NCBI RefSeq assembly: GCF_000969885.1
Contig: NZ_CP009501.1
Location: 2,494,908 to 2,558,907, forward strand
DNA from: Methanosarcina thermophila TM-1
GTDB taxonomy: Archaea > Halobacteriota > Methanosarcinia > Methanosarcinales > Methanosarcinaceae
Length of the DNA stretch: 64,000 nt
Direction of reading: 5' to 3'
Of the stretch, positions 4,123 to 35,622 are shown piece after piece. How positions within the stretch are numbered: the first letter of the stretch is position 1; every line of letters starts with the position of its first letter. A model generated the notes under the pieces. It saw nothing but the letters and a program-made list of their open reading frames with translations. It was not told the origin of the DNA and made no database searches. A program made the translations under genes and the position numbers.

Positions 4123-4953
4123 ATGGTTACTGAAAAGATTGAACTGATAAAGGAGGCTATAAAAGCCAGAGGAAGTGCAGTTGTTGCATTCTCAGGGGGA
4201 GTAGATAGTACAACTCTTGCAGCCCTTGCTTTTGAAGCCCTTGGGGAAAAAGCAGTCGCTGTGACCATAGATTCCCCACTCTTTCCAAGGAGACAGCTTG
4301 AAACAGCTGTCAAGACTGCCTGTGAAATCGGAATTGAGCATAAAATTCTTACTTTCTCTCAGCTGAGCCTTCCTTATTTTTCAGCAAATACATTAAACAG
4401 GTGCTATTTCTGTAAAAAAGCCCTGCTTGAAACCCTTCTGGATTTCGCGGAAAAAGCGGGATACAACGTTGTGCTTGAAGGCACAAATTCCTCCGAACTG
4501 CAGGGAGAATACCGCCCTGGCTACAGGGCAGTACAGGAAGCGGGAGATAAGGTTTTTTCTCCTTTTATGGAATTTGATGTAACAAAAGAACAAATCAGGG
4601 AGATTGCATCAAAGCTTTCTCTTTCAGCAGCCAGCCGACCTTCTGCAGCCTGCCTTGCTACACGTTTTCCTTACGGGCAGCCGATAACTGTCGAATCACT
4701 TCAGAGAATCGAAAGAGCCGAAGATTTTCTCTATTCCCTGGGTTTTTCCCAGTTCAGGGTCAGGATGCATGAATACCTTGCCCGGATTGAGGTAATTCAG
4801 GAGGAATTTGAGGATGTTCTGCGGAAAAGAGAAAAAATTGTGCGTCGTTTAAAATCCCTGGGCTTTGACTACATTACCCTTGACCTTGAGGGTTTCCGGA
4901 GCGGAAGCATGGACGAGCCTTACATCCGGGAAAAAGAGATAATAAGGCATTGA
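4123..4953 (+). CDS. larE: LarE-type ATP-dependent sacrificial sulfur transferase
   Basis: 276 residues. The N-terminal PP-loop SGGVDS (about residues 24-29) marks an N-type ATP pyrophosphatase. The 'NRCYFCKKAL' segment and the Cys in 'PSAACLATRFPYG' (about residue 180) match LarE. In bacterial LarE the equivalent Cys donates its sulfur to pyridinium biscarboxylate while making the nickel-pincer cofactor of lactate racemase; other LarE homologues use a cluster-bound sulfur. No larB/larC/larA genes are nearby, so the natural product in this archaeon is uncertain. A TATA-like 'acatatatctta' about 30 bp upstream and no Shine-Dalgarno suggest a short or leaderless mRNA. Confidence 0.8.
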   Translation: MVTEKIELIKEAIKARGSAVVAFSGGVDSTTLAALAFEALGEKAVAVTIDSPLFPRRQLETAVKTACEIGIEHKILTFSQLSLPYFSANTLNRCYFCKKALLETLLDFAEKAGYNVVLEGTNSSELQGEYRPGYRAVQEAGDKVFSPFMEFDVTKEQIREIASKLSLSAASRPSAACLATRFPYGQPITVESLQRIERAEDFLYSLGFSQFRVRMHEYLARIEVIQEEFEDVLRKREKIVRRLKSLGFDYITLDLEGFRSGSMDEPYIREKEIIRH

Positions 4954-5064
4954 GAGTCTCATCCTGATAAGATAAAGGGATTTTGTGAGATTAATCTGGG
5001 AAAAGATAAGCAATCATGAGAAGATTAGAGAAAATCTAATTGTTAGACGTTTTATTGAAAAGAT

Positions 5065-5505
5065 ATGAAAGAAATTCTGATTAGAAAAGCTGGTAAATCA
5101 GATCTGCAAGATATTCAGAGGCTTCTCTCAACTTATTTTCTCGATATGGAGGGGCTCAAAGCTGAAGATTTCTTTGTAGCTGAAATTGATGGACAAATTA
5201 GAGGATGCGCTGCTCTTATAATGTCCGGGTCTCAAGGCAAGAGATTTCTGGAACTTCATTCCATTGCTGTCCATCCCAACTTTCGGGGAAAAGGTATCGG
5301 AACCAGGCTTGTTAAGCATCTCCTGACAACAATTGACGAACCAGCCAGTGATCTCTATGTCAGGACGACTGCGCCCCAATTTTTTGAGAAGCTTAATTTC
5401 GAGAAAATTAAAAATCCCCAAAAGTTACTGCTCTGGGAAGATTGCAAAATGTGTGAGCATTTTGAAAAATGCACGCAGTTCACAATGAAATATTCCTGCA
5501 ACTAG
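5065..5505 (+). CDS. GNAT-family N-acetyltransferase
   Basis: 146 residues. The acetyl-CoA-binding motif A is clear: 'LHSIAVHPNFRGKGIGTRL' fits the R/QxxGxG/A signature. The fold start 'ILIRKAGKSDLQDIQRLL' is typical. It resembles ArgA/YhbS-like small acetyltransferases. The C-terminus carries CKMCEHFEKC, a Cys cluster that may bind metal. The stop codon is TAG, but only about ten unrelated codons follow, so I read it as the true end. Substrate unknown. Confidence 0.75.
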   Translation: MKEILIRKAGKSDLQDIQRLLSTYFLDMEGLKAEDFFVAEIDGQIRGCAALIMSGSQGKRFLELHSIAVHPNFRGKGIGTRLVKHLLTTIDEPASDLYVRTTAPQFFEKLNFEKIKNPQKLLLWEDCKMCEHFEKCTQFTMKYSCN

Positions 5506-5635
5506 ACTTTAATCTTAAGTTTTTATTCTCCGAGTTAAGTCTAATTGGCAATCCTTAATATAAGTTTGATAACTCATGTTTTGAGAATAGAGAGAAAGCA
5601 AGTCTTACCAGAACTGGCAGGACGAAACATTATTT

Positions 5636-6196
5636 ATGCAAAAGCACATGAGGCAGCATATGCTTACCCTTGGAATAGTAAATACCTACGATAAGATTAA
5701 AATTCTCGATGCTCATTACCGTGCAATTGCAAGAGCTGCTCCGATTTGCCATGCTTTTGGATTCCACCTTGCTCTTTATGATTTTCCATTTAAAATGACT
5801 GTAGAAGAACTGGTAGCTTACGTGATGGAAAAAACCACAATAGGGGAATCGGGAAGTTATCTAAAGATCCTTTATGAAAAGAGCCACCTGTCGGTATCCG
5901 AACTTCCAAAAAAAGGTTTCCCATCTCATTTTGGAGAAGTCGTAATTACTACCTCAAAACCTAGCCCAAAAAAGCAGATTACACCCATAAAGATCGCCGA
6001 AGAAGCTTTTAGAAACCGCTCTTTTCTATTTCTTGTAGGGCTGGGGCACAAAGGGCTTCCGAAAGAGCTTTTCGAGAGAGGAAAATATCATCTTGACATT
6101 ACCGGCAAAGGTCTTTCTCTTGAGACCTGCACTGCAATTGGGGCGATTCCTGCCTATCTTTCAGGGCTCATGGCGAATCTTGAGACTAAAAAGTGA
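5636..6196 (+). CDS. DUF531 family protein (archaeal, uncharacterised)
   Basis: Up to 186 residues; it matches the archaeal DUF531 family, with an N-terminal 'LTLGIVNTYDKIKILDAHYR', a central 'HFGEVVITTSKPSP' and 'LVGLGHKGLP' near the C-terminus. The glycine-rich C-terminal part and fold pattern recall SPOUT/TrmD-like RNA methyltransferases, but no function is established as far as I know. The first ATG is at 5636. Homologues tend to begin at the third Met (5660), which has a GAGG six bases upstream, so 5660 is the likelier start. Confidence 0.75.
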   Translation: MQKHMRQHMLTLGIVNTYDKIKILDAHYRAIARAAPICHAFGFHLALYDFPFKMTVEELVAYVMEKTTIGESGSYLKILYEKSHLSVSELPKKGFPSHFGEVVITTSKPSPKKQITPIKIAEEAFRNRSFLFLVGLGHKGLPKELFERGKYHLDITGKGLSLETCTAIGAIPAYLSGLMANLETKK

Positions 6197-6283
6197 ACTT
6201 CCATCATAAGTTTTTGAAGTAAAATACAGGAGAATTACTTCAATCATTTACTTAGAATATTTGGTTTCGCTAAAAATTACGGG

Positions 6284-6360
6284 ATAATTTAAAAGAAATT
6301 CCGGACTGAATAATTTTAAAAGAAATTCCGGACTGAATAATTTTAAAAGAAATTCCGGAA
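6284..6360. repeat. Direct tandem repeat, 26-27 bp unit, three copies
   Basis: Three near-identical copies beginning at 6284, 6310 and 6337, each containing 'ttaaaagaaattccgga'. They end at the TATA-like box of the next transcription unit. No spacers separate the copies, so this is not a CRISPR array. Confidence 0.85.
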
Positions 6361-6704
6361 TGGATATATATTACGATTGACAATTAGTACTTGTTGTGGG
6401 TAAGTACAACGCTAGTCGCGCTATTATGGGGTCTTTAGCCCAGAGGAAATAGAATTTCGGCATGCTTTCAGGTTTTAATCCAGAAAAATCGAAGTCTCTG
6501 ACCTTAACGCAGGATTTTGTCTTCAGGGATTTAGAGAATGAATTTTTCTGTAATTTGTTTGAAAGACTTGGAATTCTAACCTGCACTCAACGCCCCATGT
6601 GAGAAGGCTGGGAACTTTAACCCGGATTGCAGGGCTCTCGTATCCAGAAGGACTAACTCTGACCCTTATGTAAGCGCAAGATTTGAAGAGACAGGAGGGA
6701 AATT
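6361..6704 (+). promoter_or_regulatory. Putative promoter and long 5' leader of the small gene/cysteine desulfurase unit
   Basis: A TATA-like 'gatatatatta' lies at about 6363-6373, directly after the tandem repeats. Transcription from it would start near 6390 and give a leader of about 310 nt before the ATG at 6705. The leader can fold locally, for example gtactt/aagtac at about 6388-6408. I see no convincing ORF in it. The leader's role is unknown. Confidence 0.45.
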
Positions 6705-6863
6705 ATGAGTGAATTAAAGCGCGAAAACAAGAAAAAAAACGAATATAGAAATAAGTACCAGGAAAGCAGTTATCATGCCGTGGTAAAAGGCTGTACTGAC
6801 CACCTGGACTCAGACGAATTAGACCTTTACCGCTTTATGATAGGCGGGATGCAGGGGAAATAA
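6705..6863 (+). CDS. Small hypothetical protein, 52 residues
   Basis: An ATG with a strong Shine-Dalgarno (GGAGGG, six bases upstream) opens a 52-codon frame ending in TAA. The product starts with a highly charged stretch rich in Lys, Arg, Asn and Glu (about residues 2-20). A less charged C-terminal half follows, with 'DHLDSDELDLYRFMIGGMQGK'-like composition, a single Cys, and no membrane segment. I do not recognise a family. It ends 42 bp before the cysteine desulfurase on the same strand and is probably cotranscribed with it, so a role in sulfur transfer or its control is possible but is only inference. Confidence 0.6.
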   Translation: MSELKRENKKKNEYRNKYQESSYHAVVKGCTDHLDSDELDLYRFMIGGMQGK

Positions 6864-6905
6864 CCTTGCACAACCTTTTTTTATTCTTCGTTCTTAAGAA
6901 AAAGC

Positions 6906-8087
6906 ATGTACGATGTATATGCGGTCCGTGAAGATTTCCCTGTTTTAAAAGAAGTCGTGTACCTTGACAGTACGGCAACTACTCAGACACCAGTACCTGC
7001 AGTTGAAGCCATGGTCGAGTACTTTTACAAGTATGCTGGCAACCATGGGAGGGGTGCACATCGTTTAGCTAGGGAAGCTACAAATCGTTATGAAGATGCA
7101 AGGGAAACTGTTGCGAGTTTCCTGGACGCAGAGCCTTCAAAGACCGTTTTTACGAAAAATACCACTGAAGGTATAAATCTCATTGCAAACAGCTATCCCT
7201 GGGAAGCTGGAGACCATATTATTACGACCCTGCTAGAACATCATTCAAATCTCCTTCCCTGGCTGCGCCTCCAGAAAAAAGGAGTAAAAGTTACGATTAT
7301 AAGTCCTGACAGCGAGGGAAAGATCGATATCTCTTCTATAGAGGAGGCTTTTACTGAGAAAACAAGACTGGTTGCCATAACTCAGGTTTCAAACGTCTTC
7401 GGTTCCATTCAGGATGTAAAAAATATCACAAGACTTGCCCATCGAAACGGCATAAGAACCCTGATAGACGGGGCTCAGTCCGCAGGACATATGCCAGTTA
7501 GTCTTAAAGATCTGGACTGTGATTTCTTTGCAACTGCAGGGCATAAAGGACTACTTGGACCGCAGGGCACTGGCGTACTTTATATCAAAGAACCAGACAT
7601 ACTCGATAGCGCCTCAGTGGGAGGAGGTACAGTTTCGGATATTGAAGGGTGCAATTATGTACTGGAACCTTCTCCTGCCTGTTTTGAAGCTGGCACCCCA
7701 AACATTCCAGGAGTTATAGCCTTAGGAAAAGCAGTCGAATATGTAAAAAAAATAGGAGTTTCGGAAATAGAGTCACACGAAATAAAATTGGCAACTGAAA
7801 CTGCAAAAAGACTTTCCGAACTAGAGCATGTAGAGGTTTACGGGCCTGATGATAGGGCAGGAATAGTACCTTTTAATGTAAAAGGGCTTCATGCCCATGA
7901 TGTTGCCCTGATTCTTGACCAGACCAGGAAAATCTGTGTAAGAAGCGGACATCACTGTGCAATCCCAATTGTACGCTTCCTGAAGGTGGACAGCACTGTA
8001 AGAGCTTCTTTTGCATTATATAATACAGAAGAAGAAGTGGATATACTGGTAGATGCAGTTGCCGACCTTAAGGCTCTCGTTTCTTAA
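6906..8087 (+). CDS. sufS: Cysteine desulfurase, SufS/CsdA type (class V aminotransferase)
   Basis: 393 residues. The PLP lysine lies in TAGHKGLLGPQG (about residue 215). The persulfide Cys sits in RSGHHCA near residue 356, the group II (SufS) context. 'LDSTATTQTP' and 'TTLLEHHSNLLPW' are the usual N-terminal and cofactor-binding motifs. It releases sulfur from L-cysteine as a persulfide for Fe-S clusters, thiolated tRNA or other cofactors. No sufBCD or scaffold gene is adjacent; its only companion is the small protein upstream. Many methanogens lack this enzyme, so its presence suits the larger Methanosarcina gene set. Confidence 0.88.
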   Translation: MYDVYAVREDFPVLKEVVYLDSTATTQTPVPAVEAMVEYFYKYAGNHGRGAHRLAREATNRYEDARETVASFLDAEPSKTVFTKNTTEGINLIANSYPWEAGDHIITTLLEHHSNLLPWLRLQKKGVKVTIISPDSEGKIDISSIEEAFTEKTRLVAITQVSNVFGSIQDVKNITRLAHRNGIRTLIDGAQSAGHMPVSLKDLDCDFFATAGHKGLLGPQGTGVLYIKEPDILDSASVGGGTVSDIEGCNYVLEPSPACFEAGTPNIPGVIALGKAVEYVKKIGVSEIESHEIKLATETAKRLSELEHVEVYGPDDRAGIVPFNVKGLHAHDVALILDQTRKICVRSGHHCAIPIVRFLKVDSTVRASFALYNTEEEVDILVDAVADLKALVS

Positions 8088-10841: not shown

Positions 10842-12815
10842 GTGGATAAACTTGCATACAGATACTTTGGAGGTTTCTTTTACAAAAATAGAGAAAGCTT
10901 TAAAGATTTAAAATTAAAGATACGCCAATCCCATATTTCCATGACAGTGGATCAATACCTGGCTTCTGCCTTAATGTATTCTATAATAGTAGGAACTGCT
11001 GGAGGTATTTTCGGCTTATCGATGGGACTTAAAATTTTTGGTGACCCGGTTTCCCGCCTCAGCCTTTTCATGAATTCTACAAGTGCAGGTTATGCAGAAA
11101 AATATGTTTACCCTCTTGCAATTCTAACCGCTACTGTAATGCTCATTATATGTTCTCTAATTGTCTTTTTTCTGATATACAGTTATCCTTACTTTCAGTC
11201 AAATAACCGGCGAGCCTGTATAGATAGATCCATACTCCCATCAATAATCTATATGTATGCTCTGATGAAAGGAGGCATGTCGGTTTATGATGTGTTCAGA
11301 TCCATTAGCATGTATACTCATATATTTGGTGCGAGCGCGGAAGAAATATCCTATATTGTGAGGGATATGGATTATCTTGGAAAAGATTTTATAAGCGCTC
11401 TCAATTCTGCAAAAGAACGTACCCCTTCAGACATTTTTAAGGACTTTATTGATGGACTAATCATTATTTCAAACAGCGGAACTATTAATGAGTATATAAA
11501 AAGCAAGGCTGATCAATATCAATATATGGCGGAACTGGCGAATAGGAGTCTATTGCAGAGACTTGATGTTCTTGCTGAAGTTTATGTGACTGCGCTGGTT
11601 GCAGGTCCTCTTTTTATAATGGTGACCCTTGTTGTACTGCAGTTCTTCAAACCTGCTTCAACCCAGGCTCTTTACATGCTTATCTATGTAATATTGCCTG
11701 TTGCAACCCTGCTCTATCTGGTAATTCTCGATACTGTGGGAGAACTTTCTTTCAACCCTAAGAAGGGTAAGGTCTCCAGTTTTTCAATAAACCTTGCCGA
11801 CATCCCGGAAATCGAGTCAGGACTCACCAAAGAGAAGGAAGAAGAGAGGAGTAAGAAGTACAGGATGTACAGGCAGCTTTCCATTATCAAAGACATGCTG
11901 CTAAATCCCTACAGAACTCTTCGGGACGAGCCAAGATACACGTTTTTTATTACAGTTCCGGCTGGTCTACTTTATCTCACCAATCTTCCAGAAGGTATTG
12001 CAAATCGTCTCAGTTTTAGCCCTCAGTTGAACATAAATTTTGACCATGTCAGTGAAGGTGCTATCAAGCTGGCTACCACAGTTGATGACTATATTATTAT
12101 CTTTACTATCATTCTCCTGATTCCCTTCATCATTTTTTATGAGATCAAAGCCTGGAGAATACGCCAGATAGATGAGAGGATGCCTGACTTTTTAAGAAAT
12201 CTCTCCAGCATGAACGATTCTGGAATTTTACTTGCGAATTCTTTAAAATTAATAGCAGAATCGAAAATGGGCATTTTAAGTAAAGAACTCATGAAGTTAA
12301 AGGAGGATCTATCCTGGGGTACTTCCACTTCAAGAGCTCTCATGAAGCTTGAGAACAGTATCAGAACAGCTTCTTCAAGCAGGATTATTCATATTCTGGT
12401 AAAAGCAAACGAATCTACAAGTGACCTTACAAGTGTACTCTCTATCACTGCTGCACAGGCTAAGATCGAAGAGGGGTTGAAGAAAGAGCGCTCATCACAA
12501 ATGGTGATCTACATTGTCACTATTTATATATCCTTTTTTGTCTTCCTTTTCATAGTCTATATTCTGGCTACCGACTTCTTCCCGCAAACCGCCTCGTTCA
12601 CAGCGGCTGCCCAGGCAGGGGGAACCGGAGGAATAGGAAACAGCTATTTCAATATAGATGAATATAATATGCTCATGTTCCATTCAGCCCTAGTACAGGC
12701 TGTTACTTCGGGACTTATTGCCGGAAAAATGGGACAGGGTTCTGCGTATCTGGGCTTGAAATATAGCGTCAGCATGTTGATAATTGCTTATCTGGCATTT
12801 AATTTCTTTGTTTGA
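10842..12815 (+). CDS. Type II secretion system F-type membrane platform protein, double-domain (TadC/FlaJ-like)
   Basis: About 657 residues from a GTG at 10842; the open frame reaches back to an ATG at 10764, but that start lies 67 bp inside the ATPase gene. GAGGGGGGA at 10816-10824 is the nearest ribosome binding site, somewhat far from the GTG. Two T2SSF domains are visible. Each is a cytoplasmic helical bundle followed by paired membrane segments (around 'MVTLVVLQFF', 'LYMLIYVILPVATLLYLVIL', 'IIFTIILLIPFIIFY' and 'MVIYIVTIYISFFVFLFIVYIL'). This is the FlaJ/TadC platform that docks the ATPase. A hairpin terminator follows the stop codon. Confidence 0.85.
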   Translation: MDKLAYRYFGGFFYKNRESFKDLKLKIRQSHISMTVDQYLASALMYSIIVGTAGGIFGLSMGLKIFGDPVSRLSLFMNSTSAGYAEKYVYPLAILTATVMLIICSLIVFFLIYSYPYFQSNNRRACIDRSILPSIIYMYALMKGGMSVYDVFRSISMYTHIFGASAEEISYIVRDMDYLGKDFISALNSAKERTPSDIFKDFIDGLIIISNSGTINEYIKSKADQYQYMAELANRSLLQRLDVLAEVYVTALVAGPLFIMVTLVVLQFFKPASTQALYMLIYVILPVATLLYLVILDTVGELSFNPKKGKVSSFSINLADIPEIESGLTKEKEEERSKKYRMYRQLSIIKDMLLNPYRTLRDEPRYTFFITVPAGLLYLTNLPEGIANRLSFSPQLNINFDHVSEGAIKLATTVDDYIIIFTIILLIPFIIFYEIKAWRIRQIDERMPDFLRNLSSMNDSGILLANSLKLIAESKMGILSKELMKLKEDLSWGTSTSRALMKLENSIRTASSSRIIHILVKANESTSDLTSVLSITAAQAKIEEGLKKERSSQMVIYIVTIYISFFVFLFIVYILATDFFPQTASFTAAAQAGGTGGIGNSYFNIDEYNMLMFHSALVQAVTSGLIAGKMGQGSAYLGLKYSVSMLIIAYLAFNFFV

Positions 12816-27711: not shown

Positions 27712-28860
27712 ATGGAAATAGTAGAAAAGCACAGATCAAATTGTACGGAATGCGGACAATGCCTTGAAGTCTGTCCTCGCTACAATGATCTCTGCTTGAT
27801 TGGCCGGCTTTACAGTTACCTTGAGGGGAAAGCAGAGATTGATTCCAAGTTCCTGTTGCGTTGCCTGACCTGTGGGCTCTGTGTGGATGCCTGCCCCGAG
27901 AATCTGGGAATTAAAATGCTTATTTCTCCTGCCAGACAGAAATGGGTTAATGAAAACGGGCTTACCGATAGGCAGACAATGGTAGATCCCGAGTCTAAAA
28001 ACAACCTTTTCAGGAAAATTGCCGAGCTTGATGAAACCCATATATATAAGAAAAGCCCGGGATCGGTAGTGTATTTTCCCGGTTGTGCAGGAACATATAT
28101 CAACAAAATCATGGCGCAGTCTACTGTTGCCCTGCTGGAGAAAGCAGCAGTCGATTATACTGTTCTTAGCGGGGTTGAGTACTGTTGCGGAGCCGTGTCC
28201 GCAGGTGCAGGCGATCCCGGACCTATGCGCAGAAATGGACAGCTCAATATTGAAGAAATTAGAAGAAGAGGAGCGAAAATTCTTATTACTGCCTGTCCGG
28301 GCTGCTTCAAAGCGTTTAAAGATATCTATCCGAGAATGTTTGAGAATCTTGATTTTCAGGTGCTGCATGTTTCCCAGTACCTTGAGCTTCTGGTAAGGGA
28401 AGGAAAACTTATTCCTGAGACTGTTCTCAAGCATAGAGTCTTTTATCACGATCCCTGCCATCTGACCAGGGCAATGGGCGTAAATCAGGAAGCGAGAGAT
28501 GTGCTTAAGAGTATACAGGGTACTGAACTTGCCAACGAAACCACAGAAAATTCAGCCTGTTGCGGTTTCGGAGGTGGGGTAAGGGTTAATTACCCATCCG
28601 AGTCGCTAGATATAGCTTCCGATCGCTACAGGGCTGCTGAAAAATTGGGCTGCGATGTAATTATCACAAACTGTGGAGGCTGCATGCAGAATCTTATTGA
28701 AGCCGGGAAGGGTGAAATAATAAAAGTTTTCGACCTTGCAGAATATCTTTCCCTCGCCTGTGGAATAAAAATCGAGAGAGACGATACAAGAATGCTTGAA
28801 CTCGTCAACAAAGCTTACAGGCTCTGCGTCTCAGGGTACGGAAAATCTGATGATTGCTGA
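27712..28860 (+). CDS. HdrD/GlpC-like iron-sulfur protein with two CCG domains
   Basis: 382 residues. The N-terminus has two 4Fe-4S ferredoxin motifs (CTECGQCLEVCP near residue 16 and CLTCGLCVDACP near 52). Two cysteine-rich CCG domains follow ('GCAGTY', 'YCCGA', 'CPGC'; then 'DPCHLTRAMG', 'ACCGFGGG', 'NCGGC'), the layout of HdrD and other heterodisulfide-reductase-like subunits. The CCG motifs bind the non-cubane 4Fe-4S clusters that reduce disulfides in HdrB/HdrD. No hdrE or electron-transfer partner is adjacent. It precedes the methylamine operon by 740 bp on the same strand but has its own ribosome binding site. Its disulfide or quinone-like partner is unknown. Confidence 0.8.
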   Translation: MEIVEKHRSNCTECGQCLEVCPRYNDLCLIGRLYSYLEGKAEIDSKFLLRCLTCGLCVDACPENLGIKMLISPARQKWVNENGLTDRQTMVDPESKNNLFRKIAELDETHIYKKSPGSVVYFPGCAGTYINKIMAQSTVALLEKAAVDYTVLSGVEYCCGAVSAGAGDPGPMRRNGQLNIEEIRRRGAKILITACPGCFKAFKDIYPRMFENLDFQVLHVSQYLELLVREGKLIPETVLKHRVFYHDPCHLTRAMGVNQEARDVLKSIQGTELANETTENSACCGFGGGVRVNYPSESLDIASDRYRAAEKLGCDVIITNCGGCMQNLIEAGKGEIIKVFDLAEYLSLACGIKIERDDTRMLELVNKAYRLCVSGYGKSDDC

Positions 28861-32652: not shown

Positions 32653-33699
32653 GTGGATTTAAAAACTTTAAAAAAACAGGAAAATAAAAGAAAAATCAGT
32701 AAAGGGTATATGTGGGCCCTTTTTTGTGCTGTTTTCTGGGGTCTCTGGTATCTGCCAGGAACTGTTGTCTGGGTACTCAACCCGTTCGATGAGATGTATG
32801 CCGCCATTGCCAAAGCAAGTGGAGACGGCATGTCCCTTGTTGTTACTGCTGTTCTGATCACTGCCTTCAATGCACTCACTGTTATGCTTGCGCTTATGGT
32901 CTGGAATGGAGTGCTTGGAAAGTACGGGGAACTGGGCAGGACTCTTAGGGAATTCCACCCCTGCTCCAAATGGTTCTTCCTTGCCTCGATCTTCGGTGGC
33001 CCGATAGCAATTCTCGGTTCTTTTATTGCTATGGGCTTTATAGGAGGAGCATTTGCAGCCGTTGCTGGCCTTCTTTATCCTGTTATAGGTTCGATTCTTG
33101 CCTATTACTGGTACGGAGAAAAAATCTCAAAGAGAGCAATAATCGGCATTGGAATCATTGTCCTTGGAGGTATTTCTATTTACGGCGGTGGAGTTCTGAC
33201 AGAACTTTCTTCAGGTAACATCCCCTGGATAGGATATCTCGGAGGTTTGATGGCTGCTGCCGGCTGGGGCATTGAAGGTGCAATTGCAGGTAAAGGACTT
33301 GACATCGCAGAGCCGGATGCTGGGCTCACCCTTCGTTTCCTTGGAGAAAACATAATCTGGTGGGTTATTATCGTGCCGATTCTGGCAATCCTTGGCTTCC
33401 CGATGTACTCATTTGCATTCCAGGTTTTCGAGCCTTTAACTCTGCTGGTCCTAGTCTTCGCAGGTATCACATTTGGTTTCTGTTATGTTACCTGGTACAA
33501 GTCTTTCCCGCTTATAGGAGTTGGAAGAGGTCAGGGCATTGGAAACCTGTACGGGTTCTGCGCTGTTATATTCATATTCCTCTTCTTCGGAGACATGCCA
33601 GAGTGGACTATTATTTTAGGCGGTTTGCTCTGTATCATAGGGAGTTTCATCATGTTTACTGAAGATACAAGTGCACTTGAAACCCTGAGAGGTGAGTGA
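32653..33699 (+). CDS. mttP: MttP, putative methylamine permease
   Basis: 348 residues from GTG 32653, which sits seven bases after GGAGG (32641-32645). The frame extends upstream to 32467, but that part is structured leader. About ten membrane segments in two similar halves resemble drug/metabolite (EamA-like) transporters. 'GFIGGAFAAVAGLLYPVIGSILAYYWYGEKIS' is the typical half-repeat ending (about residues 125-155). Its place in the methylamine operon is the basis for calling it a trimethylamine/dimethylamine permease; transport has not been shown as far as I know. Confidence 0.85.
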   Translation: MDLKTLKKQENKRKISKGYMWALFCAVFWGLWYLPGTVVWVLNPFDEMYAAIAKASGDGMSLVVTAVLITAFNALTVMLALMVWNGVLGKYGELGRTLREFHPCSKWFFLASIFGGPIAILGSFIAMGFIGGAFAAVAGLLYPVIGSILAYYWYGEKISKRAIIGIGIIVLGGISIYGGGVLTELSSGNIPWIGYLGGLMAAAGWGIEGAIAGKGLDIAEPDAGLTLRFLGENIIWWVIIVPILAILGFPMYSFAFQVFEPLTLLVLVFAGITFGFCYVTWYKSFPLIGVGRGQGIGNLYGFCAVIFIFLFFGDMPEWTIILGGLLCIIGSFIMFTEDTSALETLRGE

Positions 33700-33996
33700 A
33701 TGAGCCAAAGACGTCCTATTAAGTTCAGGATCCTAGAACTTTTCCTTGATGGGAAAGAGCACTGGAATTACGAGATTGTTTCGAAGATCCAGGAAGAATA
33801 TGACATGAAGAGCGACTATGGCAGGGACAGCATCAACTTCGATATTATCGAACTGGCATCCGGAGGGATGTTGAAAGACCTGGAGCAGAAAGTTGACGAG
33901 AGCGGAATCTACAAAAAAGGTTTCCTTCTGCACAGGTACAGGATAACTGACTTCGGAATAACCAGGGCATCCGATGCCTGCCTTAGAGGCTTATAA
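33700..33996 (+). CDS. Small winged-helix-like protein in the methylamine operon
   Basis: 98 residues; its ATG directly abuts the mttP stop codon, so translation is coupled. 'RPIKFRILELFLDGKEHWNYEIVSKIQEEYDM' at the N-terminus and 'HRYRITDFGITRASD' at the C-terminus look like a winged helix: a helix-turn-helix followed by a 'YRITDFG' wing strand. It could be an operon-specific regulator or a transporter accessory protein. I know of no characterised homologue. Confidence 0.7.
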   Translation: MSQRRPIKFRILELFLDGKEHWNYEIVSKIQEEYDMKSDYGRDSINFDIIELASGGMLKDLEQKVDESGIYKKGFLLHRYRITDFGITRASDACLRGL

Positions 33997-34013
33997 TCTC
34001 AAGGAGGGAAAAC

Positions 34014-34163
34014 ATGACACAAACAGCAGTGGCTCTGGAGGCTTACAACAATTACTGGGCGAATTCCTTCATACCGGCAGCCGATATCATGTGGATAGTT
34101 TTTATCCTGATTCTGGCAATAGTAGCCCTCTGGCAAGCCAGAACCTTTGTATCCAAATTCTGA
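34014..34163 (+). CDS. Small single-pass membrane protein in the methylamine operon, 49 residues
   Basis: AAGGAGGG lies six bases before ATG at 34014. The frame encodes a short polar N-terminus ('ALEAYNNYWANSF') and one membrane helix ('IMWIVFILILAIVALW'), then a basic end. Its position between mttP and mtbB suggests a small subunit of the MttP permease. It is short and has no paralogue in the window. The strong ribosome binding site makes a real gene likely. Confidence 0.75.
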   Translation: MTQTAVALEAYNNYWANSFIPAADIMWIVFILILAIVALWQARTFVSKF

Positions 34164-34218: not shown

Positions 34219-35622
34219 ATGGCAACCGAATATTCTTTGCGTATGGGAGACGGGAAGAGAATCTTCCTTACAAAAGATAAGATCATGGAGGAGATTGAGG
34301 CAGGTACTGGAAATGCTGCCGACCTTGGTGAAATCCCTGCTCTGAATGCCAATGAAATCGACAAGCTTGCTGAAATCCTCATGATGCCCGGCAAGGCTGT
34401 GAGTGTGGAACAGGGCATGGAAGTTCCTGTAACGCACGATATAGGTACTATAAGGCTCGACGGTGACCAGGGCAATAGTGGCGTTGGAATTCCTTCAAGC
34501 CGTCTTGTTGGGTGCATGATGCACGAGAGGGCTTTTGGTGCCGACACAATGGAACTGGGACACATTGACTACAGTTTCAAGCCTGTAAAACCTGTTGTTT
34601 CAAACGAGTGCCAGGCAATGGAAGTCTGCCAGCAGAACATGATTATTCCGCTGCTTTACGGTGCAATGCCCAATATGGGACTCTATTATACCCCGGATGG
34701 TCCTTTCGAGAACCCTGGTGACCTTATGAAAGCTTTCAAGATTCAGGAAGCCTGGGAATCAATGGAACACGCTGCAGAACACCTGACAAGGGACACGGTC
34801 TGGGTTATGCAGAAACTCTTTGCCTCAGGAGCCGATGGGGTCAATTTCGACACAACAGGTGCAGCAGGAGACGCTGACGTGTACGGTACCCTCCATGCGG
34901 TCGAAGCCCTTAGAAAAGAGTTCCCTGATATGTACATTGAAGTAGGAATGGCAGGGGAAATGGTGCTTGGCATGCACGGAAACCTTCAGTACGATGGGGT
35001 GACCCTTGCAGGTCTGTGGCCTCATCAGCAGGCTCCTCTTGTTGCAAAAGCCGGAGCAAACGTTTTCGGTCCTGTCTGCAATACAAATACCAGCAAAACC
35101 TCAGCCTGGAACCTTGCCCGTGCAGTTACCTTCATGAAGGCAGCTGTGGAAGCTTCTCCAATTCCCTGCCACGTTGATATGGGCATGGGAGTCGGCGGAA
35201 TCCCCATGCTTGAGACTCCTCCGATTGATGCAGTTACGAAAGCAAGCAAGGCAATGGTCGAAATTGCAGGCGTCGACGGCATATAGATCGGGGTCGGCGA
35301 CCCTCTGGGTATGCCGATCTCCCACATAATGGCTTCTGGTATGACAGGAATTAGAGCTGCAGGCGACCTTGTTGCAAGGATGCAGTTCTCAAAGAACATG
35401 CGCATAGCCGAGGCAAAAGAGTACGTGGCAAAGAAACTCGGGGTCGATGTCATGGACCTTGTAGACGAGCATATCATGCGCGAGCTGCGTGAAGAACTCG
35501 ATATCGGTGTAATCACCTCAGTCCCTGGAGCCGCAAAAGGCATTGCTGCGAAAATGAATATCGAAAAGCTGCTCGATATAAAGATAAATTCCTGCGACGT
35601 CTTTAGAAAACAGATAGCCTGA
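34219..35622 (+). CDS. mtbB: Dimethylamine methyltransferase MtbB, pyrrolysine protein
   Basis: 467 residues including pyrrolysine from ATG 34219. TAG at 35284-35286 is codon 356, the known pyrrolysine site. Family sequence continues after it ('[18 protein letters not shown]') to TGA at 35620. The product demethylates dimethylamine to monomethylamine, methylating MtbC. An alternative start nine bases upstream (34210) is less likely because the 34219 start gives the known length and codon number. Last gene of the operon. Confidence 0.96.

Follow-up and report, generated by a model that had tools for sequence, protein, structure and literature searches.

The mttP locus and its two small genes

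The window, by which we mean the whole stretch of 64,000 nucleotides from Methanosarcina thermophila TM-1 that was analysed, contains a methylamine operon with the gene order mtbC, mttB, mttC, mttP, wH98, tm49 and mtbB. The names of the operon genes, mtbB included, are those of the first-pass annotation. The labels wH98 and tm49 denote the two small genes between mttP and mtbB. The features of the locus are as follows.

32653..33699, + strand: mttP, putative trimethylamine transporter of 348 aa, EamA/DMT superfamily (Pfam EamA, E 3.6e-16)
33658..33696, + strand: codons of the MttP tail, residues 336-348 (...EDTSALETLRGE), of low model confidence; proposed docking peptide
33687..33695, + strand: ribosome binding site of wH98, GAGAGGTGA, inside the 3' end of mttP; relatives are arranged alike
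33700..33996, + strand: wH98, 98 codons, ATG at 33700, stop at 33994-33996; winged-helix protein that may partner MttP in the cytoplasm
34002..34008, + strand: ribosome binding site of tm49, AGGAGGG, read from the sequence
34014..34163, + strand: tm49, 49 codons, ATG at 34014; membrane protein with one helix, putative small subunit of MttP
34219..35622, + strand: mtbB, dimethylamine methyltransferase (TAG in frame at 35284-35286), located downstream and outside the cassette

The mttP stop codon (TGA, 33697-33699) is followed at the very next base by the ATG of wH98, and 17 bp separate the end of wH98 from the start of tm49. The first-pass annotation had described a 98-residue ORF abutting the mttP stop and a 49-residue one-helix membrane protein with a perfect ribosome site, both translationally well equipped. 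We find the first at 33700-33996, hydropathy and the AGGAGGG at 34002-34008 confirm the second, and good ribosome sites precede both. When the genes are compared with eight other Methanosarcina loci, the substitutions at codon positions 1, 2 and 3 number 95, 83 and 290 in wH98 and 47, 25 and 154 in tm49. Because the differences concentrate at the third position, both genes encode constrained proteins, and this bias together with their deep conservation rules out chance ORFs. Neither protein matched a curated Pfam family in a search with the window proteins, nor an NCBIfam family, tm49 giving none at E values up to 1. The genome of the window (G000, 3,127,379 bases) has one wH98, one tm49 and one mttP.

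A gene for a 382-aa iron-sulfur protein resembling those of the LdhH/GlpC/TfrB type lies at 27712-28860 of the window, upstream of mtbC, and keeps this place in several Methanosarcina operons.

MttP scores 60.1 bits against EamA (PF00892), for which the curated cut-off is 28.2, and so belongs to that family. Trimethylamine (TMA) presumably enters methylotrophic methanogenesis through this protein; according to PMC11708041, the function of MttP awaits validation and TMA transport is unproven.

wH98 has a winged-helix fold

The model of wH98 (mean pLDDT 92.4) consists of a winged helix and a C-terminal helix, with helices at residues 7-15, 23-33, 39-54 and 84-97 and strands at 58-65 and 76-82, and the earlier description of the protein as winged-helix-like thereby holds. 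A winged helix with a C-terminal helix is also a trait of PadR (PF03551). The closest solved fold is that of RosR from H. salinarum, which superposes on 81 residues with an rmsd of 2.1 Å (Z 11.0), and PadR-family structures score Z 9.5-11, indicating a PadR/MarR-like fold; structure matches include Z 11.0 to 6ez1 and 10.3 to 3hhh. PF03551 matched neither the wH98 of the window (E up to 1) nor any of 31 relatives (E up to 0.1), which rules out wH98 as a PadR protein by sequence. Profile-profile comparison with Methanosarcina PadR loci gave a probability of 12%, a weak value, as wrong-strand frames had mistakenly entered the alignment. A sequence search of solved structures reached a best E of 0.35, with only unrelated molecules matched, and one scan of viral contigs found no wH98 relatives.

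The segment corresponding to the recognition helix is net negative in 92 of 109 wH98 proteins and positive in two. Glu51 is invariant (109/109), and position 46, which aligns to the Tyr of PadR's recognition helix, is Asn, Arg or Lys in every one of the 109. These statistics leave out seven hits outside 88-115 aa (two each in L119, L120 and L200, one in L188); both hits in L237 were trimmed to fit them, the fusion described below being read from a nearby internal start. Tyr occupies the helix position in all eight readable PadR loci (15 tried), a partly circular control to which we give little weight because the search pattern itself demanded Tyr. The contrast in charge is modest, since the PadR recognition helices from loci of the Methanosarcina order span -2 to +2 with a median of 0 (n=8 of 15 tried). 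In the divergent clade the recognition helix of wH98 is tryptophan-rich (YWKWMARFWMTEL).

Judged from the model, DNA binding by wH98 would be structurally conceivable, and the protein could be an operon-specific PadR/MarR-like transcription factor for the methylamine genes, leaving only tm49 as a transporter subunit. The confident fold, the DNA-binding regulators (RosR, PadR) among its best solved matches and the location in a strongly regulated operon fit this explanation, but the missing Pfam PadR match, the mostly negative recognition helix and the absence of PadR's Tyr do not, and a different regulator, MM2441 of the ArsR family, has been implicated in the M. mazei methylamine operons (PMC3510493). 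Nor does it account for the distribution described in the following sections, in which wH98 tracks mttP even where no methyltransferase gene is nearby, a divergent wH98 accompanies each divergent MttP, and one wH98 is fused to MttP. We consider a transcription factor of this kind unlikely.

Co-occurrence of mttP, wH98 and tm49

Searches of 149 relatives found wH98 in 70 genomes, tm49 in 71 and mttP in 71, and all three genes occur together in the same 70. The extra mttP genome (G080) holds a contig-end fragment. The extra tm49, in G102 (L105), is a weak and isolated match that overlaps other ORFs; no other window gene was found nearby, and it was judged to be chance. All 100 wH98 places listed for the 149 relatives lie within 1.5 kb of mttP. 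Conversely, 101 of 107 mttP places are near wH98, the other six being G034:C2, both pieces of a broken G047 copy, the G080 fragment and two tiny fragments in G020; tm49 is near both genes at 90 of its 92 places, the exceptions being G102 and a fragment in G076. The sole intact mttP without partners is that of G034:C2 (L096, 7722-8807), an isolated gene with no window methyltransferase gene found nearby, which retains the tail ETLR. By eye, recombinase-like and transposase-like ORFs surround it.

Scanning named genomes with the wH98 alignment gave at least 59 loci, a lower bound because the scan relied on one peptide pattern. By their titles nearly all belong to Methanosarcinaceae or its genera; among the rest, one is labelled an ANME-2 cluster archaeon and one a Methanomassiliicoccaceae archaeon, and three contigs are labelled Euryarchaeota archaeon. 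mttP lies immediately upstream of wH98 on the same strand at all 59 loci. tm49 was detected by tblastn at 55; of the remaining four, L177 carries at the place of tm49 a one-helix ORF of 45 aa that the tm49 profile matches, and L187-L189 are divergent loci.

In a phylum-wide search 58 of 392 genomes matched wH98 at E up to 0.01, and all of these are of one family except G166 (E 3e-22) and the chance-level G172, whose weak match (L201) has no supporting gene and was judged spurious. The G166 locus (L200) keeps the order mttP, wH98, tm49. Within its positions 5602-7074, wH98 contains a TAG in frame, which perhaps encodes pyrrolysine, and mttP contains a TGA in frame at a codon that is Trp in relatives (VPK-TGA-TVIL versus VPxWTIL); decay of the copy, a sequencing error or recoding may account for these stops. 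In the class that bears the Methanomassiliicoccales, that of G484 (the genome of L177), 16 of 200 genomes carry wH98 at E <1e-15, a count that leaves out three further hits at E 0.01 or worse, and the same 16 carry mttP. wH98 directly follows mttP in all 22 regions read in this class; the tm49 profile matches in 15 of these regions, and the other seven have a one-helix ORF 2-5 bp after wH98.

Co-occurrence with mttP across methylotrophic archaea, raised as a question by the first-pass annotation, is therefore strong for both genes, and no intact operon was found to lack either of them when we looked for otherwise identical operons without one.

tm49 and its one-helix relatives

tm49 is 73-96% identical to its relatives in genomes of the same genus. 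One column near the C-terminus of the aligned small proteins holds a basic residue (Arg in 81 and Lys in two of 84 rows), and the remaining row, L174, is a wrong-frame ORF; the alignment leaves out L166, L181, L256, L120, L119, L129 and L238. An ORF with one transmembrane helix lies within 450 bp of wH98 for 117 of 118 hits, compared with 451 of 2000 random anchors, where the halves of broken genes in L119, L120 and L200 are counted as separate hits. The automatic choice of this ORF is wrong or doubtful at L166, L181, L256 and the broken L120; in the first three of these the true tm49 is known by homology, and the small gene of L238, which the automatic choice missed, was caught by the profile.

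Paralogues, a fusion and changing neighbours

Divergent MttP paralogues that are 31-41% identical to that of the window each have their own wH98 (26-37% identical), and the one-helix protein encoded at their loci is a distinct one, typified by MFHIEGVWAFAGADYVYL...ALYIGRTFTKKI. At L237 (G570, 4916-6472) mttP and wH98 form one open frame, within which EamA is detected; the fused product ends ...SLRAENEPADENGHAANTVEPMDDHGKIIRKAPIKFRLMQILENGG..., and tm49 overlaps its last codons. This fusion is a single case. About 0.5 kb past it, at 7010-7400, the 3' part of wH98 recurs together with tm49, identical by eye. Three other long wH98 frames were set aside as fusions: for L239 and L240, frame arithmetic on the coordinates shows that wH98 and mttP do not share a frame, and that of L238 was judged to be chance, as a separate mttP stop is present.

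The genes beside the cassette vary. It adjoins mtmB at L108, an amino-acid-type permease at L180 (Methanimicrococcus) and the choline TMA-lyase CutC at L155 of Methanococcoides vulcani (1673 bits, cut-off 1050; CutD of the same locus, 506 bits, cut-off 360), and at L254 it occurs without any methyltransferase match. The transporter is the constant element among these changing neighbours. mttP, wH98 and tm49 form one cassette of fixed order, which is kept with every MttP paralogue examined except broken or isolated copies, is independent of methyltransferase genes, and is far more general than the methylamine operon.

At L155 (917-9006) the cassette directly precedes CutC and the activase CutD, with an MttB-like gene upstream that is 31% identical to the MttB of the window, and the same cluster is found at L130 (Methanococcoides vulcani SLH 33). 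This is possibly a methanogen's choline-to-TMA cluster. At L130 a tm49-like gene fragment lies past CutD (11481-11561), which would fit insertion of the choline-lyase genes within or next to a cassette that had been duplicated. At L091, L095 and L203 a single wH98 and a single small membrane gene sit between two divergent mttP genes (mttP-wH98-tm-mttP), an arrangement that suggests either a heterodimer or a pair of carriers with shared partners.

The C-terminal tail of MttP

The AlphaFold2 model of MttP (pLDDT 86.8) is all-helical, and its final helix stops at residue 335. The last block of the model has a mean pLDDT of 45, and the final 13 residues are of low confidence. Arg346 (codon 33688-33690) is identical in all 33 aligned MttP proteins. 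The conservation of the tail in Methanosarcinaceae is partly a matter of nucleotides, because the tail codons overlap the ribosome site of wH98. S/T-x-R-like tails are also found in divergent MttP paralogues whose wH98 ribosome site sits elsewhere, and the MttP-wH98 fusion carries SLR at the tail position, where a ribosome site is unneeded. We infer that the disordered tail may be a docking peptide.

A proposed three-component transporter

We propose that wH98 and tm49 are dedicated partners of MttP and that the methylamine transporter of these archaea has three components, a reading to which we give about two chances in three. wH98 points to the transporter because it follows mttP and not the methyltransferases, has a paralogue for each divergent MttP, and is in one case fused to it. 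The first-pass annotation had suggested a transporter subunit and a dedicated regulator; the former is well supported for the 49-residue protein, and for the 98-residue protein the evidence favours the transporter over regulation of transcription. wH98 would act in the cytoplasm as a subunit or regulator and perhaps dock on the disordered tail of MttP. It would sit on the cytoplasmic face, probably at the acidic tail with the invariant Arg, its winged helix serving protein-protein contact rather than DNA, and from there might gate, stabilise or regulate transport. tm49 would be a one-helix subunit in the membrane, oriented so that the short N-terminus is outside and the basic motif close to the C-terminal end, [AGS]R-x-aromatic, is inside; it is predicted to pack against MttP and complete the complex.

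Several observations count against this proposal: the intact L096 mttP has no partners, two mttP genes go with one wH98 at L091, L095 and L203, the fusion is single and comes from a genome with a nearby 3' copy of wH98-tm49, and the nearest folds to wH98 bind DNA.

A variant in which the three proteins form a sensing transporter, its winged helix held at the tail or fused and released to or withheld from DNA by methylamine flux, is a long shot; if true, it would constitute an archaeal transporter-tethered transcription switch that travels with each transporter paralogue. wH98 might also be an assembly or stability factor for the membrane insertion of MttP that stays outside the working transporter, with tm49 in the assembled complex. 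The adjacency of the genes (median mttP-wH98 gap 4 bp, 108 loci) suggests co-translational coupling, and the co-occurrence and the fusion fit such a factor equally well, but once fused it would remain on the transporter permanently, and it has no positive distinguishing mark; we regard it as very unlikely. Although vertical descent and transfer of whole operons can by themselves yield co-occurrence, inertia of an operon of functionally unrelated neighbours is barely credible given a cassette kept across distant lineages and paralogues as neighbours change and given the MttP-wH98 fusion.

If MttP needs both small partners, then MttP expressed alone may not work, and the unit to test is the whole cassette of three genes. 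The proposal would give a role to two protein families that have no curated Pfam or NCBIfam match, and would add a winged-helix subunit to the ways in which small proteins partner transporters.

Comparison with known systems

wH98 shares its fold with the PadR and RosR regulators (Z 9.5-11) but differs from PadR in having no Pfam match, no helix Tyr, an acidic recognition helix and a tie to a transporter. In systems of the MetP-MetS type a secondary transporter is encoded alongside a short single-helix protein; the mttP cassette belongs to another transporter superfamily, its tm49 has no NCBIfam match, and MetP-MetS is not known to have a winged-helix third gene. YbdD of E. coli is a small protein. 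CstA-YbdD likewise pairs a membrane carrier with a small conserved protein, although the carrier is a different one and the abstract reports no one-helix subunit (PMC5847655). In the same genus, the small protein sP36 of M. mazei acts on the membrane transporter AmtB1; it differs in its length of 61 aa, in moving between cytoplasm and membrane, in working through GlnK1 and in the transporter concerned (PMC10714827).

The nearest precedent is from M. mazei, where mttB1C1 is MM1688-90 and mtbC1B1 is MM1687 and MM1693-94 (PMC3510493), so that the gene order fits that of the window. sORF_05 (MM_RS18880) is in an operon with the TMA permease MM_1691 and MM_1692, which the available text calls just "hypothetical"; it is translated, is found mainly in the membrane fraction, slows growth when overexpressed and was suggested by the authors to be a permease subunit, with homologues reported in that text only within Methanosarcinaceae (PMC11456600). 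By position, wH98 is the equivalent of MM_1692 and tm49 that of sORF_05, and tm49 is like the latter in lying beside a TMA permease and a hypothetical gene and in having a hydrophobic membrane helix, the identity being positional. Our search of mostly open-access literature found, beyond the papers cited here, no published role for MM_1692 or MA0531 and no EamA-winged-helix system. The earlier remark that neither small gene has a known role accordingly stands for wH98 in the literature searched and falls for tm49, whose positional M. mazei counterpart is partly characterised (PMC11456600). The idea of tm49 as a permease subunit is already in print (PMC11456600); unlike that report, we extend the pair to other lineages and to paralogous transporters, and what is new here is the breadth of the cassette, the paralogue-specific pairs and the fusion.
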